64,000 nt of DNA from an uncultured Bacteroidia bacterium. Its GTDB lineage: Bacteria; Bacteroidota; Bacteroidia; Bacteroidales; UBA932. Shown here piece after piece: positions 13,629 to 30,622 of the stretch (its first letter is position 1; each line of letters opens with the position of its first letter). The stretch spans positions 1 through 64,000 of the forward strand of contig CADBFO010000017.1 of NCBI GenBank assembly GCA_902794005.1, in the 5' to 3' direction. The notes under the pieces were generated by a model. The model was not told where the DNA came from and searched no databases. It saw nothing but the letters and a program-made list of their open reading frames with translations. The position numbers and the translations under genes were made by a program.

Positions 13629-13644
13629 TATTTTCGGTATATGC

Positions 13645-13677
13645 GCAAAAAAACCACCTGCATTTCTGTAGGTGGTT
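13645..13677 (-). terminator. Intrinsic terminator of tRNA-Asn
   Basis: An 11-bp stem (13652-13662 with 13667-13677, one G-T pair) with a four-base loop is followed on the minus strand by seven T residues, just after the tRNA-Asn 3' end. Confidence 0.85.
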
Positions 13678-13684
13678 CCGGGAG

Positions 13685-13758
13685 CTCCCCCTGTTGGACT
13701 TGAACCAACGACCCTCTGATTAACAGTCAGATGCTCTAACCAACTGAGCTAAGGAGGA
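13685..13758 (-). tRNA. tRNA-Asn (anticodon GTT)
   Basis: On the minus strand acceptor TCCTCCT pairs with AGGGGGA (one T-G pair). The anticodon arm CTGACTGTTAATCAG places GTT in the loop. T arm GTTGG-TTCAAGT-CCAAC. Discriminator G; CCA is not encoded. Confidence 0.95.
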
Positions 13759-13786
13759 ATTTTCCGTTATTTCCGTAACGGGATTG

Positions 13787-13817
13787 CAAAGGTACAACCT
13801 TTTTTGGATTCTCCAAA
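13787..13817 (-). promoter_or_regulatory. Promoter of tRNA-Asn
   Basis: TTTG (complement of 13814-13817) and TACCTTTG (complement of 13787-13794) are 19 bases apart, the same -7 sequence and spacing as the tRNA-Glu promoter. Confidence 0.8.
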
Positions 13818-13849
13818 GGTTTTGCAGAATTTTTTCAAAGGATTTTTTG

Positions 13850-13857
13850 TATATTTG
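13850..13857 (+). promoter_or_regulatory. -7 box of the HU-like gene
   Basis: TATATTTG, an exact -7 consensus, ends 28 bases before the ATG of the HU-like gene. The nearest TTTG upstream (13821) is 25 bases away, longer than usual. Confidence 0.55.
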
Positions 13858-13885
13858 TGAATTAAACCAATCTAAAACAAGTAAG

Positions 13886-14734: not shown

Positions 14735-14768
14735 TGCTATCTTCGCGGTCCCAAAAAGTAGTGTAAGC

Positions 14769-15536: not shown

Positions 15537-15537
15537 C

Positions 15538-17223
15538 ATGAAAGACTTGTTTTTCGGATATGGCATCGCCCACTCCATCATGCTGTTTGCTTTTGTGATC
15601 GGGGTGGGAATCTTTCTGGGCCGCTTCAAGGTCAAGGGGGTTTCCTTGGGCTCTACCTGGATCCTGTTCCTGGGCATCCTGATGGGACATCTCGGCTTCA
15701 AGGCCGATCTGGATGTCCTCCATTTCGTAAAAGAGTTCGGCCTTATCCTCTTTGTCTTTTCCATCGGCATGCAGGTCGGCCCCGGCTTCTTCCATTCGTT
15801 CAAGAGCGGTGGCGTCAAGATGAACCTGCTTGCCACCCTGTGCATTCTGTTGGCCGTGCTGGTGACCTGGGGCATTTCCGCCCTGACCGGGGAGGACCTT
15901 GGCACCATGACCGGCGTCATGTCCGGCGCAGTGACCAATACGCCCGGTCTGGGTGCCGCCCAGCAGACGTACATCGATGTGGCCGTGGCCGGCGGTGTCA
16001 GTAAGCTGGCGGCCGGCGAGGCTTCCGAACACCTGGCATCGGCCTATGCCGTGGCTTATCCGATGGGCGTTATCGGCGTCATTCTGATTATTTTGCTGGG
16101 CAAGGCCATTTTCAGGATCGACCCTCAGAAGGAACTGGATGACCTCAAGGCCCAGGACGAGGTCGTGGACAAAGCCCGACGCATGCATGTAGCGGTGGAG
16201 AACCCCGCCATTTTCGGCAAGAAACTGGAGGATGTCCTGAAGGACTTCGGCAGTGGCTTTGTGGTGTCCCGCGTCATGAAAGGGGAACAGATTATTTCCC
16301 CGGGCGCCGATACCGTCCTGGAAGAAGGGGACAAACTGCTTGTCGTCACCTCTCAGCACGAGGTGGACAAAATCCGTATTCTCTTCGGCCAGGAAGTTGC
16401 CATGCACCAGACCGACTGGGTGCGGAAAGACCACAACATGGTCACCCGCCGGATCGTGGTTACCAAGAGCGACCTTACCGGCAAAAAACTCAAGGAACTG
16501 GCCTTCCGCAGCGCTTACGGCGTCAGCGTGACGCGGGTGATCCGCGCCGGCGTGGAGCTGGTTGCCGGCCCTGACCTGTATGTGCAGATGGGGGACGGCC
16601 TCATGTGCGTGGGCACGGTGGACAATATCGAGAACCTGGCCAAGAAAGTGGGTAATTCCAACGACGCCCTCAACAAACCCAACCTGGTTCCCATCTTCCT
16701 GGGTATCGTGGTGGGGATTGTCTTCGGCTCCATTCCCATCCGTTTCCCCGGCATTCCGCAGGCCATCAAGCTGGGCCTGGCCGGCGGCCCGCTCATCATC
16801 GCCATCCTGCTGGGTCACTTCGGCCCCAAATATAAGATTACGACCTACACCACCACCAGCGCGAATTTGATGCTGCGTGAAATAGGCATTTCCCTCTTCC
16901 TGGCAGCCGTGGGCATCGGCGCCGGCGACAATTTCTGGAGCTCCATTGTCGGCGGAGGCTACTGGTGGATCCTGTACGGAGCGCTTGTGACCATGATTCC
17001 GGTGGGCATCACGTTCATTGTGGCCCGCGCCCTGTGTCACCTCAACTTCTATCAAATCTGCGGTCTGATCAGCGGTACGTGCACCAACCCTCCGGTGCTG
17101 GCGTTCGCCCAGGGCATGTACGGCAGCGATTATACCTCTGTGAATTACGCCACGGTGTATCCGCTTTCCATGTTCCTGCGGGTGTTGGTGGCGCAGCTTC
17201 TGATTCTGATCGCAATGGCATAG
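15538..17223 (+). CDS. AspT/YidE/YbjL-type putative transporter with two TrkA_C domains
   Basis: Inner-membrane protein of 561 residues of the aspartate:alanine exchanger (AAEx) superfamily. Two hydrophobic halves (about residues 8-190 and 385-560) each resemble an AspT/YidE/YbjL duplication domain. The second carries a GLISGTCTNPPVLAFA-like signature echoing SGAVTNTPGLGAA in the first. Between them are two RCK_C/TrkA_C cytoplasmic regulatory domains (about 200-370). The substrate is unknown; dicarboxylates or amino acids are plausible from the family. Start one base after the thioesterase stop, so probably one operon with it and the NUDIX gene. Confidence 0.88.
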   Translation: MKDLFFGYGIAHSIMLFAFVIGVGIFLGRFKVKGVSLGSTWILFLGILMGHLGFKADLDVLHFVKEFGLILFVFSIGMQVGPGFFHSFKSGGVKMNLLATLCILLAVLVTWGISALTGEDLGTMTGVMSGAVTNTPGLGAAQQTYIDVAVAGGVSKLAAGEASEHLASAYAVAYPMGVIGVILIILLGKAIFRIDPQKELDDLKAQDEVVDKARRMHVAVENPAIFGKKLEDVLKDFGSGFVVSRVMKGEQIISPGADTVLEEGDKLLVVTSQHEVDKIRILFGQEVAMHQTDWVRKDHNMVTRRIVVTKSDLTGKKLKELAFRSAYGVSVTRVIRAGVELVAGPDLYVQMGDGLMCVGTVDNIENLAKKVGNSNDALNKPNLVPIFLGIVVGIVFGSIPIRFPGIPQAIKLGLAGGPLIIAILLGHFGPKYKITTYTTTSANLMLREIGISLFLAAVGIGAGDNFWSSIVGGGYWWILYGALVTMIPVGITFIVARALCHLNFYQICGLISGTCTNPPVLAFAQGMYGSDYTSVNYATVYPLSMFLRVLVAQLLILIAMA

Positions 17224-17227
17224 CGTT

Positions 17228-17818
17228 ATGATGGATTTGTTGTATCCGGCCGATCCTGCTCCGTATTATCCCAAGCCTTCCATCTCCAGGCCCGGCAGGC
17301 AGGTGATCCCGAAAGGGGAGAAGGTCCCGCTGGTGGAGCCTGGCGGTCTGGTGTACGGCCAGGCCACCCGGGAATGGTGCCACGGTGGCTCCAAGGCCCT
17401 GCATCCCGTGGTGCATCTTCACATCATCGACCGTTTTTCGCGAATCTATCTGCAGAAGCGTTCCCTTGCCAAGGATTTTCTGCCCGGATACTGGGATACG
17501 GCCGTGGGAGGTCACATCACTTATGGAGAACGGGCCGAAGAAGCCCTCTACCGTGAAGCGGCCGAAGAACTCGGCTTGCAGGCGTTCAACGCCCATCCCA
17601 TCGAGTCTTATCTCTACGAGACAGACCGGGAACGTGAGCTTATTCTGGTCTATGCCACGGTCGGCCACCCCTGTCTGAACCCGGATAAGGGTGAAGTCTC
17701 TGAAGGAAAATGGTGGAGCCTGGAAGAATTGGAATCGGTCTGGGACAAAGAGATCCTTACCCCCAATTTCCAGTCGGAATTCCTTCGCATCAAGGACAGA
17801 TTGCTGGCACTTCTGTAG
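17228..17818 (+). CDS. NUDIX hydrolase
   Basis: 196-residue NUDIX-fold protein with an intact Nudix box, GGHITYGERAEEALYREA continuing AEELGL (GX5EX7REUXEEXGU), about residues 93-117, that binds the catalytic divalent metal. The N-terminal ~40 residues are an extra segment typical of YfcD/isopentenyl-diphosphate isomerase-like members, which suggests a nucleoside-diphosphate or isoprenoid-diphosphate substrate, not decidable here. Two adjacent ATGs (17228 and 17231); the first is used. It follows the transporter stop by four bases. Confidence 0.9.
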   Translation: MMDLLYPADPAPYYPKPSISRPGRQVIPKGEKVPLVEPGGLVYGQATREWCHGGSKALHPVVHLHIIDRFSRIYLQKRSLAKDFLPGYWDTAVGGHITYGERAEEALYREAAEELGLQAFNAHPIESYLYETDRERELILVYATVGHPCLNPDKGEVSEGKWWSLEELESVWDKEILTPNFQSEFLRIKDRLLALL

Positions 17819-17838
17819 GATTTTCCCTCAAAATGCCG

Positions 17839-17846
17839 TATCTTTA
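17839..17846 (+). promoter_or_regulatory. Possible -7 box of the DUF4922 gene
   Basis: TATCTTTA lies six bases before the ATG at 17853, one base from consensus. If used, the transcript would be leaderless. Confidence 0.4.
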
Positions 17847-17852
17847 CAAGGT

Positions 17853-19403
17853 ATGGCAACAGATATCGACAAATTTGTACACGACCAGTTGTCGGTTTGG
17901 CCGGCGGTGGCAGCCAAGTACCGGGCCCTCAAAAGCGCCCGGACACGCACCGTCCCCATCGGCGGCATCCTTGTGACGCTGCAGTCCAATCCCGGCCGGC
18001 TGCCCGTCTTCGACCATGGCTGCCCGCTTTGTGAAGAAAACTACATGGAGCATCAGCATACCCTTCCGTTCGAAGGGCGGAAGGGCCGCAAGTACGATAT
18101 TCTGGTGAACCGGGCTCCCATTTTCCCCAACCATCTGGTGATCACGCGCGATATCCATGTGCCGCAAACCATCTGGCACCGCTTCCCCGACATGCTGGAC
18201 CTGGCGGCCCAACTGGACAATTACATTGTTTTCTATAACAGCCCCAACAGCGGGACGTCGGTTCCCCAGCATGCGCATTTCCAGGCCTGCCCCAAGGGCT
18301 ATATGCCCCTGGAACGGGTGACGGAGCGCCTCCTGAGGGCCGTGGCGGCCGGCACTGTCCCGGAAGAACTGGCGTTCATCGATACGGCGCGGGATGCCCA
18401 GCTGTTTCATTATAAGCGCTTCAACCGGGGCATTTTCATGCTTCGTGCCCAGACTTCCAAGTCCATGGCCAAACTCTTTTACCGCCTTCTTGACTGCCTG
18501 AACCTGCTGGCCGAAGAGACCGAACCGCGTTTCAACGCTTTCACTTATTGCAGTGAAGGGGAGTTCCGCACGCTGGTCACGCTCAGAAGCGCGTCGCGGC
18601 CGCATTGTTATTATGCGGAAGGGGAGGAGCATTTTTCGATTTCCCCCGGTGCGGCCGACATGGCCGGCTTCGTCGTGGTCCCGGAAGAGGATGACTTTGA
18701 CCGGCTGAATGCCGCTGTCCTTCAGGAAATCTACGAAGATGTCACTCTTTCGGAAGCGGAGGAAAAACGCCTCCTCTGGCGTCTTGTGCGTACGCAGCCC
18801 AAAGTGGAAGTGGGCATCTGCGCAGCGCAGGAGGTTGTTTTTGAAATCATTTCCGACGGCGCCGGCCCCCAAAAGGTCAGTTACCGGGAAGGAAAGATCG
18901 ACTACAACGGTGTCCTGTACGACGAACTGGTCTTCGAGGCCGTCACCATCTCCACCCTTTTTGCCGAACCTTCTTTCATCCTTTATGGGGAGGGGAGTCC
19001 CCGCCGTTTTGCCGGTACGCTCAAATTGCTGGCCGAAGAGGGCGGGGTAAGGGCTGTCAACATTCTGGGTGCGGAGGATTACCTTCTGAGCGTCGTGTCC
19101 CTGCTGCCGGAGGAGCGTCGAAGGGAAGCATCCATCGCCATCCGACGCTCCCTGCTGGAACAGATGGAGCAGCGCCGGAAAGGGCGCTTGCATATCTCAG
19201 GCCCGGAACTTGTAAACACCCCGGAAGTGATAACCTGGCTGGAGCATCGGCCCGTTTCGGAGAAGCGTTCCGGAGAAGGCCCGGTCCACGCTCTTTTTGA
19301 CGTGTGCGCATCGGAGCATTGTTACCGTTATGAAGGACTGACGCCTGCGGCCGATGCCGACGCACGTTCGGTCATCGACGAAACCTGGGGACAGACAGAA
19401 TAA
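17853..19403 (+). CDS. DUF4922 family, HIT/GalT-like nucleotide phosphotransferase homologue
   Basis: 516-residue Bacteroidetes protein. The segment PQHAHFQACPKG contains the HxHxQ-type triad of the HIT/galactose-1-phosphate uridylyltransferase superfamily (about residue 140), and upstream NRAPIFPNHLVITRDIHVPQ has the matching strand pattern (compare GDP-galactose phosphorylases). A C-terminal half (about 290-516) of unknown fold follows. The name DUF4922 is from memory. A nucleotidyl transfer or phosphorylase reaction on a sugar phosphate is inference. Start at MATDIDKFVHDQL; a longer frame upstream overlaps the NUDIX gene and is not protein-like. Followed closely by murI. Confidence 0.7.
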   Translation: MATDIDKFVHDQLSVWPAVAAKYRALKSARTRTVPIGGILVTLQSNPGRLPVFDHGCPLCEENYMEHQHTLPFEGRKGRKYDILVNRAPIFPNHLVITRDIHVPQTIWHRFPDMLDLAAQLDNYIVFYNSPNSGTSVPQHAHFQACPKGYMPLERVTERLLRAVAAGTVPEELAFIDTARDAQLFHYKRFNRGIFMLRAQTSKSMAKLFYRLLDCLNLLAEETEPRFNAFTYCSEGEFRTLVTLRSASRPHCYYAEGEEHFSISPGAADMAGFVVVPEEDDFDRLNAAVLQEIYEDVTLSEAEEKRLLWRLVRTQPKVEVGICAAQEVVFEIISDGAGPQKVSYREGKIDYNGVLYDELVFEAVTISTLFAEPSFILYGEGSPRRFAGTLKLLAEEGGVRAVNILGAEDYLLSVVSLLPEERRREASIAIRRSLLEQMEQRRKGRLHISGPELVNTPEVITWLEHRPVSEKRSGEGPVHALFDVCASEHCYRYEGLTPAADADARSVIDETWGQTE

Positions 19404-19410
19404 CAACGTT

Positions 19411-20190
19411 ATGGCAACTATCGGCATATTCGATTCCGGCTGCGGTGGCCTTTCGGTCTATCGGGAACTGGTAAAAGTGCTCCCGGAGGAACAGTATCAC
19501 TATTACTCCGACAACGCTCACTGCCCGTACGGGGAGAAATCGGCCCTGTACATCCGGCGGCGCGCGCGCTTCATCACGGAATTCCTTCTGGACAAGGGGG
19601 CCGATATCATCGTAGTTGCCTGCAACACCGCCACGGCGGCGGCCATCGCCACGCTTCGGGCAGCGTATCCGGATGTTCCCTTCGTGGGCATGGAGCCTGC
19701 CGTGAAGCCGGCGGCTCTGGGAACCCGCAGCGGCGTCATCGGCGTCCTGGCGACGGCCGGCACTCTAAAAGGGTCCAAATATCTTAACACCAGAGGTTTA
19801 TACGAGGACGACGTTACCATTGCCGAGCATGTGGGCCAGGGCTTTGTGGAACTGGTGGAAAGCGGGATTCTGGATGGTCCGGAGGCCGAAGCGCTTGTCC
19901 GCGCCTCCCTCCAGCCGCTGCTGGATACCGGGGCCGACACCATTGTCCTGGGCTGCACGCACTACCCTTTCCTGCAGCCGCTGATTGAACGGCTGGCCGG
20001 CCCGTCGGTGCGGGTCATCGACCCCGCCCCGGCCGTGGCCCGGCAAACCCTCCACGTGTTGGAGCAGCGCGGCGTCCCCATCGGCGCGGGCCCTTTTTCC
20101 GTGAAACTATACGCTTCCGGCGACCCCGCCGCCCTCAACCGTATCTTTGGCTCGTTGACGGGTGGCTCGGAACATATTAATAGTCAATAA
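19411..20190 (+). CDS. murI: Glutamate racemase
   Basis: Makes D-glutamate for peptidoglycan stem peptides. Both catalytic cysteines are in their motifs: ACNTATAAAIATL and GCTHYPFL. The N-terminal GIFDSGCGGLSVYREL holds the conserved Asp/Ser. 259 residues, normal length. The start at MATIGIFDSG is the family start; the frame extends upstream into the DUF4922 gene but without homology. Stop followed directly by a hairpin element. Confidence 0.96.
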   Translation: MATIGIFDSGCGGLSVYRELVKVLPEEQYHYYSDNAHCPYGEKSALYIRRRARFITEFLLDKGADIIVVACNTATAAAIATLRAAYPDVPFVGMEPAVKPAALGTRSGVIGVLATAGTLKGSKYLNTRGLYEDDVTIAEHVGQGFVELVESGILDGPEAEALVRASLQPLLDTGADTIVLGCTHYPFLQPLIERLAGPSVRVIDPAPAVARQTLHVLEQRGVPIGAGPFSVKLYASGDPAALNRIFGSLTGGSEHINSQ

Positions 20191-20247
20191 TTTACGTATA
20201 TTCCTCTGCGCTTTTTGCGCAGAGAAATACAAGCAAGTAACTGATTT
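20191..20247. repeat. Palindromic element, copy 1 (between murI and namZ-like gene)
   Basis: An 8-bp stem CTCTGCGC (20204-20211) / GCGCAGAG (20217-20224) with a TTTTT loop sits in a longer stretch resembling bases 22985-23050. The outer arms are decayed compared with copy 2 (TTACGTATATTC matches the left arm; the right arm diverged). It may act as the murI terminator. Such paired hairpins are typical of REP/BIME-like or MITE remnants. Confidence 0.75.
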
Positions 20248-20255
20248 ACAGAAAG

Positions 20256-21494
20256 ATGCGAATCACCCAAATGTTACTCGGATTGCTGCTGGCAGTGCTT
20301 CCGGCCAGGGCGCAGGTGCTCACGGGAATAGATGTCCTGGAGCGCGACGGATTTGAACCGCTGAAAGGGAAGCGTGTGGGGCTTGTCACCAATCCCAGCG
20401 GTGTGGACCGCAACCTCCGTTCCACCATTGACGTTCTTTTCGAGGCGCCGGAAGTGCATCTGGTCGCCCTCTACGGGCCGGAGCACGGTGTACGGGGGGA
20501 TGCCTATGCGGGAGATCATGTGGAAAGCGGCAAGGACCCCAGGACCGGTCTTCCGGTGTATTCCCTTTACGGCAGCACGCGCGAGCCTACGCAGGAGATG
20601 CTCAAGGGAATTGATGTCATGGTGTACGACATTCAGGATGTGGGTGTCCGCTGCTATACCTTCATCTCCACCCTCGGTCTGGTGATGCGTGCCTGCGCCC
20701 GGGCCGATGTGGAAGTCCTCGTCCTGGACCGTCCCAATCCCCTGGGCGGCAACAAGGTGGAGGGACCGCTGGTGGAAGAAGGTTACTATTCTTTTGTGAG
20801 CCAGTTCCATATTCCTTTTGTCTATGGCCTCACGGTGGGAGAACTTGCCTCCCTTATCAATGAGGAGGGATTGAACCGAGGTCAGAAAGGGGACCAGAAG
20901 CCCCTCAAGTGCCGCTTGAACGTGGTCCCCATGCAGGGCTGGCAGCGTTGGATGCAGTTCCGTGACACCGGCCTTCCCTGGATTCTTCCTTCCCCCAATA
21001 TTCCTTCCATGGAGAGTGCTCTCTGCTATGCCAGTTCCGGTATCTGCGGAGAATACGGCTACCTGAACACGGGCGTGGGCTACACCATTCCGTTCCAGAC
21101 GTTCGCGGCTGAATGGATCGATGCCGACAAACTCAAGGACCGTCTGGACAGTTATGCCCTCCCCGGGGTGGCTTTCCGCACCATTCACTACAAGCCCATT
21201 TCCGGCTCCCTGTCCGGAAAACTCATCCATGGCGTACAGTTCTTTTTTACCGATTATGAATCGGCCCCGGTTTCCCTCCTGCAGTTTTATGTGATGCAGG
21301 CCATCCAGGAGCTGTGGCCGTCGCGCAGTCCCTATCCCCTCAAGAAAACCCGGATGTTGGATATTGTTTGTGGTACGGATTATGTAAGGACTACTTTCGG
21401 AAAGCGAATGAAAGCAGCCGACATCGTTGATTATTGGAACAAGGATACCGAAGATTTCAAGGCGCTTTCCCAACACTATTACTTATATCGTTAA
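20256..21494 (+). CDS. Exo-beta-N-acetylmuramidase-like protein (DUF1343, NamZ type)
   Basis: Exported 412-residue protein (signal peptide MRITQMLLGLLLAVLPARAQ) of the DUF1343 family, whose founding member NamZ removes MurNAc from the non-reducing end of peptidoglycan fragments (GH171). Seen: GLVTNPSGV near the N-terminus, GPEHGVRGD with the conserved acidic residue, VYDIQDVGVRCYTFISTL, LDRPNPLGG, and SPNIPSMESALCY. All are hallmark segments, so activity is plausible. It probably works in cell-wall recycling or degradation in the periplasm. Downstream of murI but separated by a hairpin; followed 19 bases later by a Ser-rich exported protein. Confidence 0.85.
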   Translation: MRITQMLLGLLLAVLPARAQVLTGIDVLERDGFEPLKGKRVGLVTNPSGVDRNLRSTIDVLFEAPEVHLVALYGPEHGVRGDAYAGDHVESGKDPRTGLPVYSLYGSTREPTQEMLKGIDVMVYDIQDVGVRCYTFISTLGLVMRACARADVEVLVLDRPNPLGGNKVEGPLVEEGYYSFVSQFHIPFVYGLTVGELASLINEEGLNRGQKGDQKPLKCRLNVVPMQGWQRWMQFRDTGLPWILPSPNIPSMESALCYASSGICGEYGYLNTGVGYTIPFQTFAAEWIDADKLKDRLDSYALPGVAFRTIHYKPISGSLSGKLIHGVQFFFTDYESAPVSLLQFYVMQAIQELWPSRSPYPLKKTRMLDIVCGTDYVRTTFGKRMKAADIVDYWNKDTEDFKALSQHYYLYR

Positions 21495-21513
21495 TCCTAA
21501 AAACGAAGATGCT

Positions 21514-22962
21514 ATGAGAAGTTTAACCACCCTTGCCACTTCCATGATGCTGGCGTTTGTCATGCTCATGGCACCTGATATGCTGGCCCAGTCCCGCTCT
21601 AAGGGCGGCAGTTCTTCCGGCCGGTCCACCACTTCCGGAACCACCACCCGTTCTTCGGGCAGTTCCGTTTCCCGTTCTTCCGGAACCACCACCCGCTCGT
21701 CCGGCGGCACGGTAAACCGTTCTTCAGGAACCACCACCCGTTCTTCCGGCAGCGCAGCCGTGCAGCAGGACCGTCGGAGCACCACTTCGACCAGCCGCTC
21801 CTCCGGCAGCGGTCAGGCCACCCGCTCCTCCGGCAGTTCCGTAACCCGTTCTTCCGGCAGCAGCACCGCCGGTACCGGCACCAGCCGGTCTTCCAGCGCT
21901 ACCCGCTCTTCTTCCGGCAGTTCTTCGGCCGCCAAGAGCACCGGCGCACCGTCCGGCGGCACTACGGTCCGTTCTTCCAGCCAGTCCCATTCCAACCAGA
22001 GCGTGAGGCAGCCCGTGCAGAACACCGGGTCGGTTTCCTCTTCCGGCACTTCCCGCACATCGGCAGGCGGCGGCACTACCGTTACCGGCACCACCGTCCG
22101 CTCTTCCAACGTGAGCCGCACCGGACTCACCTCCGGTGTCGTCACCAAGGACTCGGCTCCCGTGCAGCCCACTTATCGGGATGACGGTTACAACTACCGC
22201 TACAACGATGACATGCGGGTGGACGATCGGCACAACATGTACCGCATCCCTCCGCGCCAGCGGGATCCCATGCCCTGGGACCGTGCAGGTTATTTCTGGG
22301 GAGACCATCCGCACTATTACGGATATCGTATCCACAGCCTGCCTCCGCAGTGGCGCCGTATCAGCCACTGGGGCATCGACTACTACTTCCACAACGGGAT
22401 TTATTACCGTCCCTTCGGAGGTGTGTATGTCGTCTGCCGTCCTCCTTTCGGCACTCCGCTGGAGGCCGCCATCGACCGCGCCATTTTCCGCGCTGTCACT
22501 TTCGCCTACTATTGCGATACCTACCGTACCTATAGCCGTACTTTCGACTATTACAACGTAATTGCCAGACAGAACCTCATCATTGCCCAGCAGAACGCCC
22601 GCCTCATCGCGCGGAACAGCAGTTATGCCATCAATGCAAACCGTGCCCTCACCGCCTATGAGCTGGCCGAGAAACTGGGCCTTGTCCAGAGCTATGCCTA
22701 CGCCAACTCCGAGTATTTCTACCAGGACGGCGTGTTCTACACCATCTCCGCCTCCGGCGTGTATTCCACCATCGTGCCTCCTGCAGGCGCCCTGGTTTCC
22801 TCCCTCCCGGACGACTATGAGATCATCGTGATGAACGGTGCCGAGTACTACATGGTGGACAACACCGTATATCGCACCACCCTCTTCGAAGGCGTTCCCT
22901 ACCTGGAGGTCCTGGGCCAGATGTACGGCAGCCTCTACAACCAGTACAACGTGTATCGGTGA
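21514..22962 (+). CDS. Exported Ser/Thr/Arg-rich protein with DUF6515-like C-terminus
   Basis: 482 residues with a signal peptide (about residues 1-26, ending APDMLAQ). Residues about 27-205 are low complexity, built from loosely repeated TTRSSG, SVSRSSG and SSSG blocks. The C-terminal half is Tyr-rich. It has two related segments, DYYFHNGIYYRPFGGVYVV and YFYQDGVFYTISASGVYSTI followed by PPAGALVSSLPDDYEII, which resemble DUF6515 (identification from memory, moderate). No enzyme motif. The basic, Ser-rich arm could bind the cell surface or be glycosylated (inference). Start at ATG 21514, giving the signal peptide. Pairs with the NamZ-like gene. Confidence 0.65.
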   Translation: MRSLTTLATSMMLAFVMLMAPDMLAQSRSKGGSSSGRSTTSGTTTRSSGSSVSRSSGTTTRSSGGTVNRSSGTTTRSSGSAAVQQDRRSTTSTSRSSGSGQATRSSGSSVTRSSGSSTAGTGTSRSSSATRSSSGSSSAAKSTGAPSGGTTVRSSSQSHSNQSVRQPVQNTGSVSSSGTSRTSAGGGTTVTGTTVRSSNVSRTGLTSGVVTKDSAPVQPTYRDDGYNYRYNDDMRVDDRHNMYRIPPRQRDPMPWDRAGYFWGDHPHYYGYRIHSLPPQWRRISHWGIDYYFHNGIYYRPFGGVYVVCRPPFGTPLEAAIDRAIFRAVTFAYYCDTYRTYSRTFDYYNVIARQNLIIAQQNARLIARNSSYAINANRALTAYELAEKLGLVQSYAYANSEYFYQDGVFYTISASGVYSTIVPPAGALVSSLPDDYEIIVMNGAEYYMVDNTVYRTTLFEGVPYLEVLGQMYGSLYNQYNVYR

Positions 22963-22988
22963 TCGGCAAGTAATTGACAGTTAATGCT

Positions 22989-23033
22989 TTACGTATAATC
23001 CTCTGCGCTTTTTGCGCAGAGGATTATACGTAA
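22989..23033. repeat. Perfect 45-nt palindrome, copy 2
   Basis: A 20-bp stem without mismatch, left arm TTACGTATAATCCTCTGCGC and right arm at 23014-23033, with a TTTTT loop. Same core and flanks as the element at 20191-20247. Lies downstream of the Ser-rich gene. It could end that transcript; a perfect 20-bp stem is more than a terminator needs and hints at a mobile or cruciform-forming repeat. Confidence 0.85.
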
Positions 23034-23098
23034 GTGGCTGATTATAAATAGATTCCGTGCCACCGGAAAATGCGGGATGATTTGAAAGGGATTATTAC

Positions 23099-23106
23099 TA
23101 TCTTTG
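23099..23106 (+). promoter_or_regulatory. -7 box of the C69/sialidase fusion gene
   Basis: TATCTTTG, exact consensus, 44 bases before the ATG. A TTTG at 23081-23084 is only 14 bases upstream, closer than usual. Confidence 0.55.
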
Positions 23107-23150
23107 TAAAGTACGCATTGTCGTGAAAAACCACCTTTTTCCGGAGAGTA

Positions 23151-25391
23151 ATGAACCCGTTCCTGCTTCCTCTGCTCTGTTTCGGCATCATTGCCGGACG
23201 TAACGCAACCACCGACGGTTATGTCTATCTCGGCCATAACGAAGACCAGCACGGAGAAACGATGCTGAACATCTATCATGTCCCGGCCAATGACGCACGA
23301 TGTGCCTATCTCTGGTTCGAGTTCCCGGGCCAGGCCGCCGGAGACAGTTATGCCAACGAATACGGCGTGAGCATCGCTTCCAACCAGTGCCTTTCCCGTG
23401 AAGACAAGACTCGGGGCGGCATGGTTTACGAAATTCGCACGACAGCCATCCAGCATGCGCGTTCCGCACGCGAAGCCGTTCACATCATCGGCTCGCTTGT
23501 AGAACGATACGGCTATGCCGATTCCGGACGCTCTTACCTGGTGGCGGACCAGCGGGAAGGCTGGATTGTGGCGGTGGTCAGGGGCCGGCACTGGGTGGCG
23601 CAACGGGTTCCGGACGATGAGATCGCCACCATCCCCAACTACTACACCATCGGGGAGATTCATCTCAAGGATACCGTCAACTTCCTGGGCAGCAAGGATT
23701 TGGTAAAGTATGCCCGTAAGCGGGGATGGTATCATCCAAAAAGGGACGGGAACTTCAACTTCCGCAGGGCCTATGCCCATCCCGAGACGCTTACGGACAG
23801 GCATAACTGCGATCGGCACGCTTTGGCACAGGAGCGCTTTTTCGGCGACTTCCAGGCGGAGACCTTTTCCCGGAAGCCTGCACAGAAGTTCCATCGCAGG
23901 CATCTTTCACAGCTTCTGACCGAACCGCCCATCCGCAACGATGCCACCGCCCTCACCACGGTGTTCACGATGAATCCGTCCTTCCCGCCAGAAAAAGGGA
24001 CCGTGGTCTGGGTGGGCTTCCCGGGGCAGGATGCGGCAAGCCAAAGCCAGTGGACCGTGTTCATGAGAGTGCCGGAATCCTGCCACCGCTACGCTACGGC
24101 CGATGAAGCGCTGGAGCGTCATTTCACGGACGTGGGCAATTATCGTGAACGTTGGCCGGGGCACTTCTACTGGCACTACCTTTATCCGGAAACGGATATC
24201 GACGTGGTCCCGCACGACTTTACCGTCTATGTCCCGCGGCAGCCCCGCGTAGAATCGGAACGGGACAAAAACAAGGTGGGAGACACGTTCAACGACCATT
24301 TCCATGTGCTGGAAGACCCTTCCCGCGGTCTTCTGTACGCTTTTTGGACGCAGGGATCCTTTGAGGCGGCCGACGATGAGCATGTGGTGTTCTCCAAGAG
24401 TGCGGACAAGGGCAGAAGCTGGAGCGAACCGGTCGTCCTTGCCGGTTCTCCCACCCTGGCGGCCCCCAAACCCGTTGCCGGCTGGCAGCAGCCGATGATA
24501 AGCCGGAGCGGACGCCTCTATCTGCTCTGGAATCAGGAAACCACGGTCAAAAAACACCTCCAGGGCATTATGTGCGGCCGATATTCCGACGATGGCGGCC
24601 AGACTTGGAGCGAGCCGGAAACCGTCCCGTTCCCCATCCGTTTCGAAAGCGACCCAGAGGACCCTTCCCTCCCTCCGGTCTGGTGCATGTGGCAGAGACC
24701 GCTGCGCCTGGGTGCGGACGGACGCTACTTGGCGGGCTGCTCCCGATACGACCGCAAAGGCATCGCGCGCGTGGAGTTCTGGCAATATGAGAACATCGAT
24801 GAAGACCCTCAAGTGCGGGATATCCGCATCTCTTTTTTCAACACGGGAGGGCAGTCGTTCGACTCTTCTACCGTCGCTGCCGAGGAGGATTACCATCCCA
24901 GGGAAGGGAAAATAACGGAAGAGGCCTGTATCACCGGTCTGCCGGACGGGCGGCTGTTTGCGGTGATGCGCACTTCCATCGGCCATCCTGTATGGTCGGT
25001 CAGTGCCGATAACGGACGCAGCTGGAGCCGTCCGGAAGTCCTGCGCGAGAAAGACGGAGGCGCCGCCATCCTTCACCCCTGCTCTCCTTGTCCGCTATAT
25101 GACATCCACGGGCCCGAAGCCCGCAGCGGCCATTATATGCTTCTGGTGCATGACGCCTTCGATTTCAATTCCCCGACCTCTTACCAGAACCGGGGCCCCC
25201 TGTACCGAAGGGACGGCGTTTATGTTCCCGGCGCCCATCAGCCGATATGGTTCGGAGAAGGCTCGGTTTTCTCTCCCCGGGAAACCGGGAACTCATTCTA
25301 CACAAGTTTTACCGCCTTGGACGGCGAAAGCGTCCTGTGGTTCGGCGACCAGAAATTCTACCTTTTCGGCAAGCTGATCCATTCGCACTAG
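23151..25391 (+). CDS. Fusion of a C69 (Ntn-hydrolase) peptidase-like domain and a BNR sialidase-like domain
   Basis: 746 residues in two parts. Residues ~10-370 resemble family C69 dipeptidases: Cys10, possible mature nucleophile, starts CFGIIAGRNATTDGYVYLG, followed by ARSAREAVHIIGSLVERYGY and SYLVADQREGWIVAVV, the same order as in the C69 enzyme at 45789-47456. Residues ~380-746 are a beta-propeller-like sialidase region with three Asp-box motifs: SADKGRSW, SDDGGQTW and SADNGRSW. The N-terminal leader is short (nine residues). The joint domains may act on sialylated glycopeptides in the periplasm or at the surface (inference). Stop shares CTAG with prfB. Confidence 0.75.
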   Translation: MNPFLLPLLCFGIIAGRNATTDGYVYLGHNEDQHGETMLNIYHVPANDARCAYLWFEFPGQAAGDSYANEYGVSIASNQCLSREDKTRGGMVYEIRTTAIQHARSAREAVHIIGSLVERYGYADSGRSYLVADQREGWIVAVVRGRHWVAQRVPDDEIATIPNYYTIGEIHLKDTVNFLGSKDLVKYARKRGWYHPKRDGNFNFRRAYAHPETLTDRHNCDRHALAQERFFGDFQAETFSRKPAQKFHRRHLSQLLTEPPIRNDATALTTVFTMNPSFPPEKGTVVWVGFPGQDAASQSQWTVFMRVPESCHRYATADEALERHFTDVGNYRERWPGHFYWHYLYPETDIDVVPHDFTVYVPRQPRVESERDKNKVGDTFNDHFHVLEDPSRGLLYAFWTQGSFEAADDEHVVFSKSADKGRSWSEPVVLAGSPTLAAPKPVAGWQQPMISRSGRLYLLWNQETTVKKHLQGIMCGRYSDDGGQTWSEPETVPFPIRFESDPEDPSLPPVWCMWQRPLRLGADGRYLAGCSRYDRKGIARVEFWQYENIDEDPQVRDIRISFFNTGGQSFDSSTVAAEEDYHPREGKITEEACITGLPDGRLFAVMRTSIGHPVWSVSADNGRSWSRPEVLREKDGGAAILHPCSPCPLYDIHGPEARSGHYMLLVHDAFDFNSPTSYQNRGPLYRRDGVYVPGAHQPIWFGEGSVFSPRETGNSFYTSFTALDGESVLWFGDQKFYLFGKLIHSH

Positions 25392-26530
25392 TCCAGGTCG
25401 TCCGGTTCCGTAACGGCGCTGCCGGTGCCCATCAGATAGGTTTTCATGAATTCGTTGAGGTCTCCGTCCAGGACACCCTGGGTATCGGCCGTATTGTAGC
25501 CGGTACGCAGGTCTTTCACCAGTTTATAGGGGTGGAGGACGTAGTTTCGGATTTGGGAACCCCACTCGATGCGCTTTTTCTGCCCTTCCAGCTCGGCCTG
25601 CTTTTCCTGCCGCTTCTTGAGTTCGATATCGTAGAGACGGGATTTGAGGATGAGGAGGGCTCTTTGCCGATTGTCTTGTTGGCTGCGGGTTTCCGTATTC
25701 TCCACCATGATACCGGAGGGGATGTGGCGCACGCGGACGCCCGTCTCCACCTTGTTCACGTTCTGGCCGCCGTGGCCGCCGCTGCGGAAAGTATCCCACT
25801 CCAGGTCGGAGGGGTTGATTTCGATATTGATGGAGTCGTCCACCAGCGGATACACAAATACGCTGGAAAAGGTGGTCTGGCGCTTCCCCTGGGCATTGAA
25901 TGGAGAGATGCGCACCAGCCGGTGCACGCCGTTTTCGGCCTTCAGATAGCCGTAGGCGTAGTCTCCTTCCACTTCGATGGTGCAGCTTTTGATGCCGGCT
26001 TCTTCGCCTTCCAGCAGGGAGCTTACCGTCATTTTGTACCCGTTGCGCTCTCCCCAGCGGAGGTACATTCTCATGAGCATGGCACTCCAGTCGTTGGCTT
26101 CGGTGCCGCCGGCGCCGGAATTGATGGTAAGGACGGCGCCCAGGTTATCCCCTTCGCCGCCCAGCATGTTGCGCAGCTCCAAGGATTCCACCGATGCGGT
26201 GGCCGCGGCGAAAGCCTGGTCCAGTTCCCGGGTATCGGCCGTCTCGATGGCTTCGTCATCGGCCCCGGAAAGGCTGTCTTTGGCAAAATCGTAAAGGACT
26301 TCCAGGTCGTCGGTCTCGCTTCGGGCTTTGTCAAAATCTGTGACCCAGGACTTGAGACCGGAAAGTTTTTTCAGGAAGGTCTCGGCCTGCTTGGGGTCGT
26401 TCCAGAAATCCGGAGCCAGGGTCTGTTCCGTTTTGGCGGCCACCTCCCTGCGTTTTCCGGCAATATCCAGACAAGCGTCCAGCGTAGCCATCCGCGCCTG
26501 CAGGTCTTTGATTTGTTCAAAAGTAATCAT
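25388..26530 (-). CDS. prfB: Peptide chain release factor 2
   Basis: Class I release factor terminating at UGA and UAA. The 380-residue protein shows the peptidyl-transferase motif GGHGGQNVNKVET and the stop-codon-reading tripeptide SPF in VRISPFNAQGKRQ. Start MITFEQIKDLQARM is taken because a -7 box lies six bases upstream. No programmed +1 frameshift is needed: the frame is continuous, unlike the classic E. coli gene. Convergent with the fusion gene; the two stop codons overlap in a CTAG. Confidence 0.95.
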   Translation of the reverse strand: MITFEQIKDLQARMATLDACLDIAGKRREVAAKTEQTLAPDFWNDPKQAETFLKKLSGLKSWVTDFDKARSETDDLEVLYDFAKDSLSGADDEAIETADTRELDQAFAAATASVESLELRNMLGGEGDNLGAVLTINSGAGGTEANDWSAMLMRMYLRWGERNGYKMTVSSLLEGEEAGIKSCTIEVEGDYAYGYLKAENGVHRLVRISPFNAQGKRQTTFSSVFVYPLVDDSINIEINPSDLEWDTFRSGGHGGQNVNKVETGVRVRHIPSGIMVENTETRSQQDNRQRALLILKSRLYDIELKKRQEKQAELEGQKKRIEWGSQIRNYVLHPYKLVKDLRTGYNTADTQGVLDGDLNEFMKTYLMGTGSAVTEPDDLD

Positions 26531-26536
26531 ATAGTA

Positions 26537-26544
26537 CAAATATA
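26537..26544 (-). promoter_or_regulatory. -7 box of prfB
   Basis: TATATTTG on the minus strand, six bases before the prfB start codon, so the message would be leaderless or nearly so. Confidence 0.6.
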
Positions 26545-26557
26545 CGCAATTTTCTGC

Positions 26558-26565
26558 TAACTTTG
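26558..26565 (+). promoter_or_regulatory. -7 box of pncA-pncB
   Basis: TAACTTTG, exact consensus, 17 bases before the pncA ATG; divergent from the prfB box, 13 bases apart. Confidence 0.6.
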
Positions 26566-26582
26566 TAAAAAATGCAACTTTG

Positions 26583-27143
26583 ATGAAAGACAGCGCACTC
26601 ATTGTCGTGGATATGCTCTACGATTTCATAGACGGGAGCATGGCCTGCCAGGAGGCCGATAAGGCCGTAACCAATACGCTCGACTATCTGAAGATGCTCC
26701 CGGCCCGCTCGGATTTTCCTGTCCTCTTTGTCCGGGACCACCATCCGGCCAACCACTGTTCCTTCCAGGCACAGGGAGGCCCGTGGCCACCGCATTGCGT
26801 GCAGGGCACCCATGGGGCCGATATCCATGAGGCTCTGGCCCCTTATGCCCATGAAGACCTGTGCTTCTTCAAGGGAGAAGACCCCGAAAAAGAGCAGTAC
26901 AGCGGCTTCGAGGGCATGAACCCTGCCGGGCAAAGCCTCTGCGACGTCCTGCAGATCCTGGAGATCCGGCATGTCGTCGTCTGCGGCATCGCCACGGAAT
27001 ACTGTGTGTACAATACGGTCAAAGACCTGCAGGGGGCCGGTTTCAAGCTGAGCGTCCTCAAGGACTGCATTGCCTATGTAGAAAAAGAGGGGCATTTGAA
27101 AACCCTGAAAACCATGGAAAAAGAAGGCATCGTCCTCATATAA
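26583..27143 (+). CDS. pncA: Nicotinamidase (cysteine hydrolase family)
   Basis: Deamidates nicotinamide to nicotinate in NAD salvage. The 186-residue isochorismatase-fold protein has the N-terminal catalytic Asp (ALIVVDMLYDF), the metal/active segment VRDHHPANHCSFQ with the zinc-binding D and H residues, WPPHCVQGTHGA, and the catalytic Cys in VCGIATEYCVYNT. Start ATG at 26583; an in-frame TTG just upstream is less likely. Nine bases before pncB, and the paired enzymes support the assignment strongly. Confidence 0.93.
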   Translation: MKDSALIVVDMLYDFIDGSMACQEADKAVTNTLDYLKMLPARSDFPVLFVRDHHPANHCSFQAQGGPWPPHCVQGTHGADIHEALAPYAHEDLCFFKGEDPEKEQYSGFEGMNPAGQSLCDVLQILEIRHVVVCGIATEYCVYNTVKDLQGAGFKLSVLKDCIAYVEKEGHLKTLKTMEKEGIVLI

Positions 27144-27152
27144 ATCCGTACC

Positions 27153-28658
27153 ATGAACAAAATCAATTACGCCTATGTATCGGACAAGTACCAGTACACC
27201 ATGGGAAAGTCCTATCTGGACTGTGGAAAACAAGACCAGATTGCCGTGTTCAATCTCTTTTACCGCAAGGCTCCGGAAAACAACAACTGGGCTGTCGTGA
27301 GCGGCACCGAGGAAGTGATTGAAATGGTAAAGACCCTGGGGACGGAGCCCGAGGACTTTTATGAGAAATTCCTTCCCGGGGAGGAATACAAGGAGTTTCG
27401 CAAGTACCTGAGCACCATGAAGTTCACGGGGGACGTGTACACCATGCGGGAAGGGGAGATCGTGTTCCCCAATCAGCCCATCGTCACCGTTGTGGCGCCG
27501 CTCATCCAGGCCCAGGTGCTGGAAACGCCCATGCTGTGCATCCTGAATCACCAGATGGCCGTGGCCACCAAGGCCTCCCGCGTGTGCCGGTCCACCGACA
27601 GGCCCGTGAGCGAGTTCGGCTCACGGCGCGCCCACGGTCCCTGGGCGGCGGTCTATGGGGGCAAAGCGGCCCAGATTGCCGGATGCGCCAGTTCCTCCAA
27701 CATCCTCACGGGCGCTTTCAACGGAGTGCCTTCCACCGGCACCATGGCCCATAGCTTCATTACTTCTTACGGCAGCACGGTAGAAGGGGAGCACAAGGCG
27801 TTTACAGATTACATCAGAACGCACAGGGGAGAGAATCTGATTCTCCTCATCGATACCTACGACACCCTCAAGTGCGGTGTCAAGAATGCCATCCGCTCCT
27901 TCAAGGAAAACGGTATTGACGACAGCTACGTCCCCGGTTATGGCATCCGTCTGGACAGCGGAGACTTGGCATATCTCTCGCAGGAGGTGCGCCGCATTTT
28001 GGACGATCACGGCCTGACCAAGTGTAAAATCTTCGCCACCAACGGCCTGGACGAGTATCTGATTACGGATCTGGAGCGCCAGGGCGCCAGGATAGACAGT
28101 TACGGCGTGGGCGACGCCATCGCCACCTCCAAGGCTGCTCCCTGCTTCGGAAATGTGTACAAACTGGTCCAGATAGACGACCAGCCCGTTCTCAAGCGGT
28201 CCGAGGACAAAATCAAGCTCATCAACCCCGGCTTCCAGATTACCTGGCGCATATCGGCCCAGGACAAGGAGAAGGGAGATTCCATTGACGGCTATGTCTT
28301 CAAGGCCGATGTCACCTGTCTCCGCGGAGATGAGATGGACCTTGCCATCCAACAGGGGAAGACCATCACCCTCCGCGACGAATACGACTCCTTCAAGACC
28401 AAGACTTTCGAGGAGGGGAAGTATGAGGCCCGTCCGCTCCAGCTGCAGTCGGTGCGGGGCGGAGAACGCATCGCACCGTATTACGACCTCCAGACCAAGA
28501 AGGCCTTCTACAAGGACAACCTCCAGCATTTTTCACCGGCAGAACGGCGTCTCATCAACCCCCACTATTACAAAGTGGACATCTCCGATGCCCTTTACGA
28601 CATGAAGATGTCCATCATTGGAAAACTGGTGAAGGAGATTGACGCCTTCGAGATTTAG
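27153..28658 (+). CDS. pncB: Nicotinate phosphoribosyltransferase
   Basis: Joins nicotinate and PRPP to form nicotinate mononucleotide, the second step of the PncA/PncB salvage route. The 501-residue length and segments DKYQYTMGKSYLDCG, SEFGSRRAHGPWAAVYGGKA and SFITSYGSTVEGEHKAF match the NAPRTase family, including the active-site RRAHG-type motif. LILLIDTYDTLKCGVKNAI holds the D/T-D-T-Y-D stretch for PRPP binding. Operon partner of pncA. Its TAG overlaps the S46 peptidase stop codon (TTAG at 28655-28658), so it has no terminator of its own here. Confidence 0.93.
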   Translation: MNKINYAYVSDKYQYTMGKSYLDCGKQDQIAVFNLFYRKAPENNNWAVVSGTEEVIEMVKTLGTEPEDFYEKFLPGEEYKEFRKYLSTMKFTGDVYTMREGEIVFPNQPIVTVVAPLIQAQVLETPMLCILNHQMAVATKASRVCRSTDRPVSEFGSRRAHGPWAAVYGGKAAQIAGCASSSNILTGAFNGVPSTGTMAHSFITSYGSTVEGEHKAFTDYIRTHRGENLILLIDTYDTLKCGVKNAIRSFKENGIDDSYVPGYGIRLDSGDLAYLSQEVRRILDDHGLTKCKIFATNGLDEYLITDLERQGARIDSYGVGDAIATSKAAPCFGNVYKLVQIDDQPVLKRSEDKIKLINPGFQITWRISAQDKEKGDSIDGYVFKADVTCLRGDEMDLAIQQGKTITLRDEYDSFKTKTFEEGKYEARPLQLQSVRGGERIAPYYDLQTKKAFYKDNLQHFSPAERRLINPHYYKVDISDALYDMKMSIIGKLVKEIDAFEI

Positions 28659-30622
28659 TCGGCGAAATTCATTTCATCGAAAAGATAGGCGGCGTTGCCT
28701 ACTTCCTTGATTACAAACAGGAGGTAGCGGACGTCCAGTGAGATGTTGCGGCAGATTTCGGGGTCGTACACAAGGTCACTCATGGTGCCTTCCCATACGC
28801 GGTCGAAGTTGATGCCGATGAGTTCCCCCTTCGCATTGAGCACCGGAGAGCCGGAGTTTCCGCCGGTGGTGTGGTTGGTGGCCAGGAAGCATACGGGCTG
28901 CTCCTCGAACCCGCCGCGGGCATAGATGTCACGCAGCACCTGGGGAATGTTGTAGTCGAAAATGTCCGGATTGTCCTTCTCGATGATGCCCCGCAGCGTA
29001 GAGACCGGATTGTACCAGACCGCGTCCACGGGGCGGTAGCCGGCGACCTTTCCGTAGGCTACGCGGAGCGTGAGGTTGGCATCGGGGTAAAAGTCCCGCC
29101 CGCTCTCAAACTCCATCTGGCCCTGCATGTAGTCGCGGTAGGTGAGGGTTATGGCGCTGCTCAGTTCGCGCAACTGCGGAGTAAGCACCTGGGTGTAATA
29201 CGCATCCAGGCCTTCGGCCAGCTCCTTGGCCAGGGCATCGTCGGCAAAGACGGCGTCCTTCCAGGCCTCCACCGAAGCAAAGGCGGCCCGCTGCCGTAGG
29301 AAGGACTCCGGCTTGTAACTGTCGTCCAGGGCTTTGTCGAAGGCCGATACCATGGCGACGAAAATTTCCTCGTCGATGGGACGATAATAGTCTTTCTGCG
29401 CAACGGGGCGCCCCGATGCCATCTGGATTTTCTCCACGGCGCGCACGGTCTCGTTGTAGTATTCATAGGACCGGTAAATGGGGTTGTAAGCGGCGTACAG
29501 CAGGGCCAGCCGATCGGTAATTCCTTCATAGCGGGTCCCTACGGCCCACTCGGCAAAACGCTTTTCATAGGCTTGCTTCACCGGAACGACCTTGTTCTTC
29601 CGAAGGCCTTTTTCCTCTCCCTGCCACTTTTTCCAGGCATTGGCCACGCCGGCATATTTGGAAGAGTACTGGATGCGGACGGCCTGGCTCTGATCCATGT
29701 GCTTTTTCATCAGATTGAGCCGGGTGGTGCGGAGGGCGATCTTCTCGGGGTCGGAGATGTCCTGGATGTATCGGACTGCCTCGGAGTGGATATATTCCTG
29801 GGTGCTTCCGGGGCATCCATAGACAAAGGTAAAATCGCCTTCCTTGACCCCTGCACGGGAGATTTTCAGGGATTTTTTGGGCCGATAGGGCACGTTGGTC
29901 TCGCTGTATTCGGCCGGCATGTTGTCCTGGCCGGCGTAGATGCGGAAGATGGAGAAGTCTCCGGTATGGCGGGGCCACATCCAGTTATCCGTTTCTCCGC
30001 CGAATTTGCCGATGGAGGAGGGAGGGGCTCCCACCAGCCGGACGTCGCTGTATTCGCGGAATACGAAGAGGAAGTACTGGTTGCCATAATAGAGGGCTTC
30101 CACGCTGGCCCGGAGGCCCTTTCCTTCCTTGACGGCATCGGCCTTCAGTTTGTCGCTGTTTTTCTTGATGAGGGCCTGGCGCTGCTCTTCGTTCATCTTG
30201 GCGGGTTTGTAGCCCTTGAGGACGGCGGCGGTCACGTCTTCCATCCTTTCCAGGAAGCGGACGGTGAGGCCGGGATTGGGCAGTTCCTGGCTACGGTTCA
30301 TGGCCCAGAATCCGTCCTTGAGGTAATCGTGCTCCACGGAGGAATGCCTTTGGATAAAACCGTATCCGCAGTGATGGTTGGTAAAAAGGAGCCCTTCGTC
30401 GCTCACCAGTTCTCCGGTGCAACCGCGGCCAAAGAGCACCACGGCATCCTTCAGGCTGGCCTGGTTCACGCTGTAGATGTCTTCGGCGCTGAGCTGTAAG
30501 CCTTTGGCTTGCATGTCACCGATTCTTTGGGAAATGAGGGCCGGCAGCCACATGCCTTCATCGGCCTTCAGGGGCTCAAGGGCGGCAAAAAGAAGAGCCG
30601 CCAGGAGGAAGCTTTTTTTCAT
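28655..30622 (-). CDS. S46 family dipeptidyl peptidase, DPP11-like
   Basis: Periplasmic serine exopeptidase releasing dipeptides from the N-terminus of peptides. Signal peptide at residues 1-20 (MKKSFLLAALLFAALEPLKA). The catalytic His lies in FTNHHCGYGFIQ and the catalytic Ser in TGGNSGSPVLNAKG. The residue that sets P1 preference in the family sits in FDRVWEG: Arg here, as in DPP11 (Asp/Glu preference), where DPP7 has Gly; this alignment is from memory, so moderate. Length 655 is shorter than the ~700-720 of characterised DPP7/DPP11. Start at the ATG giving the signal peptide; a -7 box lies 27 bases upstream. Convergent with pncB. Confidence 0.88.
   Translation of the reverse strand: MKKSFLLAALLFAALEPLKADEGMWLPALISQRIGDMQAKGLQLSAEDIYSVNQASLKDAVVLFGRGCTGELVSDEGLLFTNHHCGYGFIQRHSSVEHDYLKDGFWAMNRSQELPNPGLTVRFLERMEDVTAAVLKGYKPAKMNEEQRQALIKKNSDKLKADAVKEGKGLRASVEALYYGNQYFLFVFREYSDVRLVGAPPSSIGKFGGETDNWMWPRHTGDFSIFRIYAGQDNMPAEYSETNVPYRPKKSLKISRAGVKEGDFTFVYGCPGSTQEYIHSEAVRYIQDISDPEKIALRTTRLNLMKKHMDQSQAVRIQYSSKYAGVANAWKKWQGEEKGLRKNKVVPVKQAYEKRFAEWAVGTRYEGITDRLALLYAAYNPIYRSYEYYNETVRAVEKIQMASGRPVAQKDYYRPIDEEIFVAMVSAFDKALDDSYKPESFLRQRAAFASVEAWKDAVFADDALAKELAEGLDAYYTQVLTPQLRELSSAITLTYRDYMQGQMEFESGRDFYPDANLTLRVAYGKVAGYRPVDAVWYNPVSTLRGIIEKDNPDIFDYNIPQVLRDIYARGGFEEQPVCFLATNHTTGGNSGSPVLNAKGELIGINFDRVWEGTMSDLVYDPEICRNISLDVRYLLFVIKEVGNAAYLFDEMNFAD

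Follow-up and report, generated by a model that had tools for sequence, protein, structure and literature searches.

A conserved fusion of a C69-type Ntn domain with a sialidase-type propeller in Bacteroidales

The 64,000-nucleotide stretch of Bacteroidia DNA analysed here (contig CADBFO010000017.1; hereafter the window) contains a gene whose product appears to join a C69-type peptidase domain to a sialidase-like propeller. Is this combination real, and what would a protein built in this way do? A sequence-only reading had proposed that a single exported enzyme removes sialic acid and cuts the peptide of mucin-like glycopeptides.

One gene, two domains

The gene is one uninterrupted frame of 746 aa at 23151-25391 on the + strand. 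Its features, and the evidence for each, are as follows.

23099-23106, +: TATCTTTG, a Bacteroidota -7 promoter-like element, 44 bases before the start codon (pattern match)
23151-25391, +: complete C69-propeller fusion gene, 746 aa (open reading frame, Pfam, 32 other contigs with the same architecture)
23151-23177, +: hydrophobic leader MNPFLLPLL, residues 1-9, a probable propeptide (7-10-residue leaders in 26/31)
23178-23180, +: Cys10, the predicted Ntn nucleophile (Cys 21, Ser 8, Gly 2 of 31)
23178-24188, +: C69/Ntn domain, residues 10-346 (Pfam, fold model, Foldseek, alignment with stand-alone C69 proteins)
24204-25379, +: sialidase-type propeller, residues 352-743 (Pfam, fold model, Foldseek, stand-alone propeller set)
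24291-24299, +: Asn381-Asp382-His383, replacing the RIP motif; first triad Arg absent (sialidase alignment)
24348-24365, +: Thr400, which replaces the sialidase acid/base Asp, to the invariant Glu405 (alignment, conservation)
24399-24422, +: Asp box 1, SADKGRSW, residues 417-424 (sequence)
24585-24608, +: Asp box 2, SDDGGQTW, residues 479-486 (sequence)
24921-24923, +: Glu591, putative equivalent of the Tyr-activating sialidase Glu (alignment, conservation)
24969-24971, +: Arg607, putative equivalent of the second triad Arg (alignment, conservation)
25002-25025, +: Asp box 3, SADNGRSW, residues 618-625 (sequence)
25191-25193, +: Arg681, the probable third triad Arg, where the sialidase alignment is gapped (alignment, conservation)
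25299-25301, +: Tyr717, putative equivalent of the sialidase Tyr nucleophile (alignment, conservation)

When the whole protein was compared with Pfam, matches to PF03577 (Peptidase_C69, E 1e-30, residues 94-231) and PF13088 (BNR_2, E 2e-15, residues 395-634) were obtained. Each half also matched its own family when searched alone (N-terminal 375 aa, PF03577, E 8.1e-32; C-terminal 371 aa, PF13088, E 3.5e-16), and the three Asp boxes noted in the sequence-only reading are all present. A fold model was generated with AlphaFold2 on an alignment of 39 sequences (mean pLDDT 89.0, pTM 0.82). Its top PDB matches in Foldseek were the C69 dipeptidase of L. farciminis and then GH33 sialidases, which supports the Ntn and sialidase-type propeller folds expected of the two halves.

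Scanning the species-genome collection with a pattern gave 38 loci, 32 of them fusions and 6 stand-alone propellers. The 32 fusion contigs (L045-L076) are all from Bacteroidales/Bacteroidia and their products show 60-95% identity to the window protein; L070 and L072 have a shortened or damaged frame. RUG or RGIG names, which belong to ruminant-gut MAG series, are carried by 28 of the 32. The chance that two genes were joined by assembly or annotation error, for which the unusual architecture speaks and nothing further, is practically nil, because 32 other Bacteroidales contigs carry the fusion, both halves are under purifying selection and the two-domain model is confident. The same contigs exclude a chance architecture. 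The window gene is a real fusion, encoding a single protein with a C69 half and a sialidase-type propeller, as the sequence-only reading had it.

The 6 stand-alone propellers are from Verrucomicrobia, Planctomycetia/Thermoguttaceae and Kiritimatiellae. In the window's genus the propeller was found in 35 of 300 genomes, the window's own included, and 33 of the 300 have the fusion as judged by an open frame of at least 688 aa, one of these (G486) having a stop codon inside the match. Stand-alone propellers with a signal-peptide-like start are present in G477 and G497 of the genus, with open frames of 446 and 414 aa respectively, the latter cut by the contig end. Beyond the genus the propeller is rare: among 295 genomes of the order, the window's genome and two distant matches (28-30% identity) were found; among 296 genomes of the phylum, at E 1e-20, the window's genome was the sole match. 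Of 194 genomes of the Verrucomicrobia, the phylum of L077, 15 match at E 1e-40, the L077 genome being one of them. The domain combination is real, conserved and lineage-restricted. A literature search on the joined architecture found no relevant paper, in keeping with the earlier statement that no standard protein was known to join the two parts. In the papers searched, this conserved joining of a sialidase-fold propeller to an Ntn domain of the peptidase type is apparently undescribed.

A maximum-likelihood tree of the propellers (midpoint root) groups the 31 fusion proteins together (100/100) and gives two same-genus stand-alone proteins as their sisters (98/90). The fusion proteins also form one group (100/99) in the C69 tree, for which the program warned of long branches, and the nearest row is a same-genus stand-alone C69 (G012, L040; 98/90). 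The C69 half ends where the C-terminal tail of stand-alone C69 proteins begins, and the propeller starts in the tail's place. Since both trees group the fusions and the junction lies at the start of the tail, the pattern is most simply explained by one fusion event. A secreted Ntn hydrolase of the C69 type, cut short at its C-terminal end, would have been joined once to a stand-alone propeller of the Verrucomicrobiota/Planctomycetota type. The spread of the propeller in the Verrucomicrobiota suggests, without proving, its transfer into the window's genus.

The C69 domain and its leader

The C69 half scored 107.5 bits with PF03577 (gathering cut-off 23) and 102.9 bits with the NCBIfam C69 dipeptidase equivalog (cut-off 250). 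Its Ntn fold is like that of solved C69 dipeptidases (Foldseek match to 5imh_A, E 4.6e-19; model pLDDT 89). The dipeptidase PepD of L. farciminis (5iau/5imh, PF03577), the top match, shares this fold at 16-17% identity in the fold alignment; Cys10 falls on its Cys9 and Asp32 on its Asp31, in a very weak segment (0.2 bits), and this pair is mutated in 5img and 5imh. Unlike PepD, the fusion has a propeller in place of the C-terminal tail, and its nucleophile varies among relatives. The C45/AAT Ntn acyltransferases are weakly matched at residues 16-148 (PF03417, 23.6 bits, cut-off 23.2; NF040521, 31.7 bits, cut-off 85).

Cys10 shares its alignment column with the Cys of four stand-alone C69 proteins whose starts are signal-peptide-like, which bears out its proposal as the possible C69 nucleophile. 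Among the 31 fusion proteins, 21 have Cys at residue 10, 8 have Ser and 2 have Gly; the Ser and Gly forms represent one change each on the propeller tree. The N-terminal Cys nucleophile is therefore present in the window protein and not general to the fusion family. Asp22, Asn30, Glu57, Asn69 and Asp155 are found in all 31 proteins and Asp32 in 30. The two Gly forms are without 74 window residues (167-195 and 201-245), and the model of one of them, L073 (mean pLDDT 82.5), is fairly confident in the first Ntn strands and weaker at residues ~180-300.

dN/dS was calculated by the Nei-Gojobori method (own script) for 18 chosen pairs, with rough values for the 4 pairs whose dS exceeds 1 in one half or both. 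Values for the C69 half were 0.04-0.21, indicating purifying selection; six Ser pairs gave 0.08-0.18 and the Gly pair L073/L075 gave 0.09. Because dN/dS stays low in the Gly pair, the C69 domain is kept by selection even without the nucleophile. The Cys, Ser and Gly forms of the family thus make up a natural series, showing change and loss of an Ntn nucleophile in a domain that remains under selection. The C69 half has the C69 fold and a variable catalytic state. Peptide cutting, as had been suggested, may be possible for the window protein, which has Cys10, and does not extend to the fusion family as a whole.

Three further C69 genes are present in the window's genome, one in the window at 45789-47456 (- strand) and the others on contigs 8 and 26. 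The Cys is preceded by 23 residues in the first and by 32 in that on contig 26, unlike in the fusion gene. Two other C69 genes with very long open frames, G005 and G015, were considered as further fusions and rejected; by eye, their length came from long frames or masked bases and from no second domain. A plasmid search with the fusion protein returned two records, matching the C69 part only at 28-33% identity.

The residues in front of Cys10 were also compared. An in-frame stop lies 8 codons upstream of the window ATG, with no ATG, GTG or TTG between. Leaders of 7-10 residues before residue 10, hydrophobic on average, occur in 26 of the 31 fusion proteins; 21 of these have no further in-frame upstream start codon (L050 lies at a contig edge), and L045, L047, L060, L067 and L069 have at least one. 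In 7 of the 26 (L063, L066-L069, L071 and L076) the element TAnnTTTG, the Bacteroidota promoter consensus, ends 5 bases upstream of the ATG. This suggests that the transcripts are leaderless and supports the short-leader start. All seven genes encode Ser-type proteins. The nine-residue leader directly before Cys10, noted in the sequence-only reading, is real and typical of the fusion family.

Nine residues is short for a signal peptide. The leader residues are variable except for Leu at -5 (26/26) and at -1, where Leu (22) or Met (4) is found; residues 11-13, 15 and 16 are identical in all 26 short-leader proteins. This conservation break right after residue 10 speaks for removal of the leader directly in front of that residue. 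A cut after Leu or Met is unsuited to signal peptidase, making autocleavage the better guess, and the switch in conservation would fit an autocleaved propeptide. The Ntn domain of the window protein probably cleaves its own leader, and an N-terminally exposed Cys after such removal is plausible on this pattern of residues. Longer leaders of the signal-peptide or lipoprotein type (by eye) are found in 5 of the 31. The Gly pair and then L064, all with long leaders, branch first in the propeller tree, suggesting that export is probably ancestral. The Cys content of short-leader and signal-peptide forms showed no clear difference and is uninformative on the cell compartment.

The propeller and its partial sialidase site

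The C-terminal half is a sialidase-type beta-propeller, with Foldseek matches to GH33 enzymes from E 5.8e-14. It shares its fold and three Asp boxes with the GH33 sialidases of P. gingivalis (8feb) and M. viridifaciens (1eur), at 9-18% identity in the sialidase matches among the 50 listed. PMC4747158 describes a sialidase site made up of a Tyr nucleophile with Glu, an Asp acid/base and three Arg residues.

Residues were placed by alignment with two RIP-bearing sialidase homologues, one of them from the window's genome. Glu591, Arg607 and Tyr717 align with the catalytic Glu, second Arg and Tyr of these proteins, and the placement of Glu591 and Arg607 was repeated in a second alignment. Arg681 is likely to be the third triad Arg, although the alignment is gapped there. 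An hhalign comparison with the sialidase of the window's genome covered 97 columns with the active-site motifs outside, so the mapping rests on the other alignments, and the equivalences are putative ones at low identity. The RIP motif, the site of the first triad Arg in sialidases, is replaced by Asn-Asp-His-Phe-His (residues 381-385) in all 31 fusion proteins, and Thr400 is at the place of the Asp acid/base in all 31.

The GH33 pair of Tyr nucleophile and activating Glu thus has apparent counterparts in Tyr717 and Glu591, whereas the arginine triad is incomplete, with the second and probably the third Arg kept and the first replaced, and the general acid/base is lacking (Thr400). As for the Arg triad, whose presence the sequence-only reading had left to be checked, Arg607 and probably Arg681 stand and the first Arg does not. 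The candidate true sialidase was rejected, two defining residues being absent. The earlier proposal of sialic acid removal is not upheld by this site, and the same genome has a separate RIP-bearing sialidase.

The positions that remain are strongly conserved: Asp382, His383, Thr400, Glu405, Glu591, Arg607, Arg681 and Tyr717 are invariant in the 31 fusion proteins. In a wider set of 23 propellers (6 fused, 17 stand-alone), Glu405, Glu591, Arg607, Arg681 and Tyr717 are again present in every member. Residue 381 in this set is Asn (22) or Asp (1), residue 382 Asp (14), Glu (8) or His (1), residue 383 His (22) or Ile (1) and residue 400 Thr (21), Cys (1) or Leu (1); none of the 23 has Arg at 381-385 or Asp at 400. 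Mean pairwise identity over the 31 fusion proteins is 0.742 for the propeller and 0.665 for the C69 half, and propeller dN/dS was 0.035-0.167 in the 18 pairs. Judged by its residues, the site is preserved as something, and not as a canonical sialidase site.

Stand-alone BNR_2 propellers of Verrucomicrobiota and Planctomycetota (L077-L082, L121-L147) are relatives of the propeller, the nearest of them at 46-54% identity. They have the same NDH/NEH, WTQ and Glu/Tyr motifs and no C69 domain; many have a signal-peptide-like start and some do not (by eye). A propeller family found in Verrucomicrobiota, Planctomycetota and ruminant Bacteroidales keeps part of the sialidase active site, and labelling its members automatically as sialidases would probably be a mistake. 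Neither half of the fusion fully earns its own name, and the propeller is not filed as GH33.

Neighbouring genes and possible roles

A NamZ exo-N-acetylmuramidase gene (20256-21494), adjoining a murI-like gene, lies two genes upstream of the fusion gene. Between the upstream DUF6515 gene and the fusion gene is an almost perfect hairpin (22986-23038, ~20 bp, UUUUU loop, -37.6 kcal/mol, z -8.85) that is probably a terminator. The TATCTTTG element, resembling the Bacteroidota -7 consensus, follows; its pattern has 42 matches in the window, with 19.6 expected. A prfB-like gene (by eye) converges from downstream, and the fusion gene sits alone. No conserved operon was found in the 25 fusion loci compared, the window neighbours recurring in one (L045, the closest).

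Families were sought for neighbouring genes picked by eye. In L055 a SASA esterase, an S58 peptidase and GH106 are all on the strand of the fusion gene, and PCMD and an M15 peptidase are further neighbours. Other fusion loci have GH78 (L060), a melibiase-type gene (L061), GH20 (L062), GH3 (L051) and, in L056, MR_MLE and NAGPA. Near stand-alone kin, two sugar-type AraC/XylR-like regulators (L078, L081) and, in L081, a BD-FAE esterase and a GDSL protein were found; 3 of the 10 neighbours in one typed batch (L079, L081, L040) gave no family. The stand-alone sister L117 adjoins GH106. These neighbours, from a picked sample, point weakly to carbohydrate breakdown, perhaps of pectin. Some of them (the M15 and S58 peptidases, NAGPA, MR_MLE) are no argument for a sugar.

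In the Verrucomicrobiota, where neighbouring genes were called by a crude script and gene limits are approximate, an HpcH/HpaI aldolase is near the stand-alone propeller in 2 of 10 regions. The L155 aldolase gene begins 3 bases past the stop codon of the propeller gene (L155:1323-3557), and that of L152 lies ~6 kb downstream. None was recognised by eye in another 5 loci. The L155 aldolase is a hint that the released sugar might be a 2-keto-3-deoxy acid.

The reading that we prefer, with a probability of roughly 45%, is a propeller-led glycosidase whose sugar differs from ordinary sialic acid and whose Ntn domain is accessory. The propeller would be the conserved working part, a sialidase-superfamily glycosidase using the Tyr717-Glu591 pair on such a sugar. 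The Ntn domain is regarded as accessory because it is altered or dead in the Ser and Gly relatives; in the window protein, with Cys10 exposed, it may cut the same substrate at an amide or peptide bond. A more specific version, which seems quite doubtful, is a new sialidase-superfamily glycosidase family, with Tyr-Glu and with His/Asn/Asp for the first Arg, that would act on an unusual acidic sugar (e.g. a pectin 3-deoxy-ulosonic acid such as Kdo or Dha) and have a C69 partner in transition, its Cys, Ser or Gly exposed after leader removal.

Lacking the first Arg and the Asp acid/base, the propeller could just as well be one that only binds. The C69 half would then be the enzyme, a peptidase or amidase kept in place on cell-wall material or glycopeptides by a glycan-binding propeller, consistent with the Cys10 and Asp32 of the window protein, with purifying selection on the C69 half in all 18 pairs and with the NamZ and murI-like genes upstream. 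It is less likely, however, that a binding module would outlast the nucleophile of its enzyme, and the counted pocket residues of the propeller are invariant while 10 of the 31 proteins have Ser (8) or Gly (2) at residue 10. This arrangement is considered somewhat unlikely.

It is unlikely that the C69 domain is nowhere a hydrolase, leaving a glycosidase with a structural cap or with an N-terminal cofactor of the kind seen in secernin-3. Secernins belong to C69. PMC9285064 describes the conversion of Cys to a glyoxylyl N-terminus in secernin-3. The Gly forms fit such a role, keeping the domain under selection (dN/dS 0.09, L073/L075) together with a predicted Ntn core. Yet Cys is kept in 21 of the 31, Ser too can act as an Ntn nucleophile, and Asp22, Asn30, Glu57, Asn69, Asp155 and Asp32 are conserved as in an active site.

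The original proposal, by which one exported enzyme would act on mucin-like glycopeptides as both sialidase and peptidase, draws on the GH33 matches (from E 5.8e-14) and on the Tyr, Glu and at least one Arg that are kept. It is nevertheless very unlikely: the first triad Arg and Asp acid/base are absent from 31/31 fusions and from 23/23 of the wider set, several typed neighbours in relatives are of the plant-polysaccharide type, and a separate nan-like cluster in the same genome has its own sialidase. The genome thus seems to provide for sialic acid use elsewhere.

This nan-like cluster (L163) is on contig 25 of the window's genome, at 10000-29500, separate from the fusion gene. Its genes read, mostly by eye, as an N-acylglucosamine epimerase, SusC/D, an esterase, a NanM-like protein, GH20 and an MFS transporter. 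They are accompanied by a NanA-like lyase (TIGR00683, 108.9 bits, below the cut-off of 382) and by the RIP-bearing BNR_2 sialidase (E 5.9e-34).
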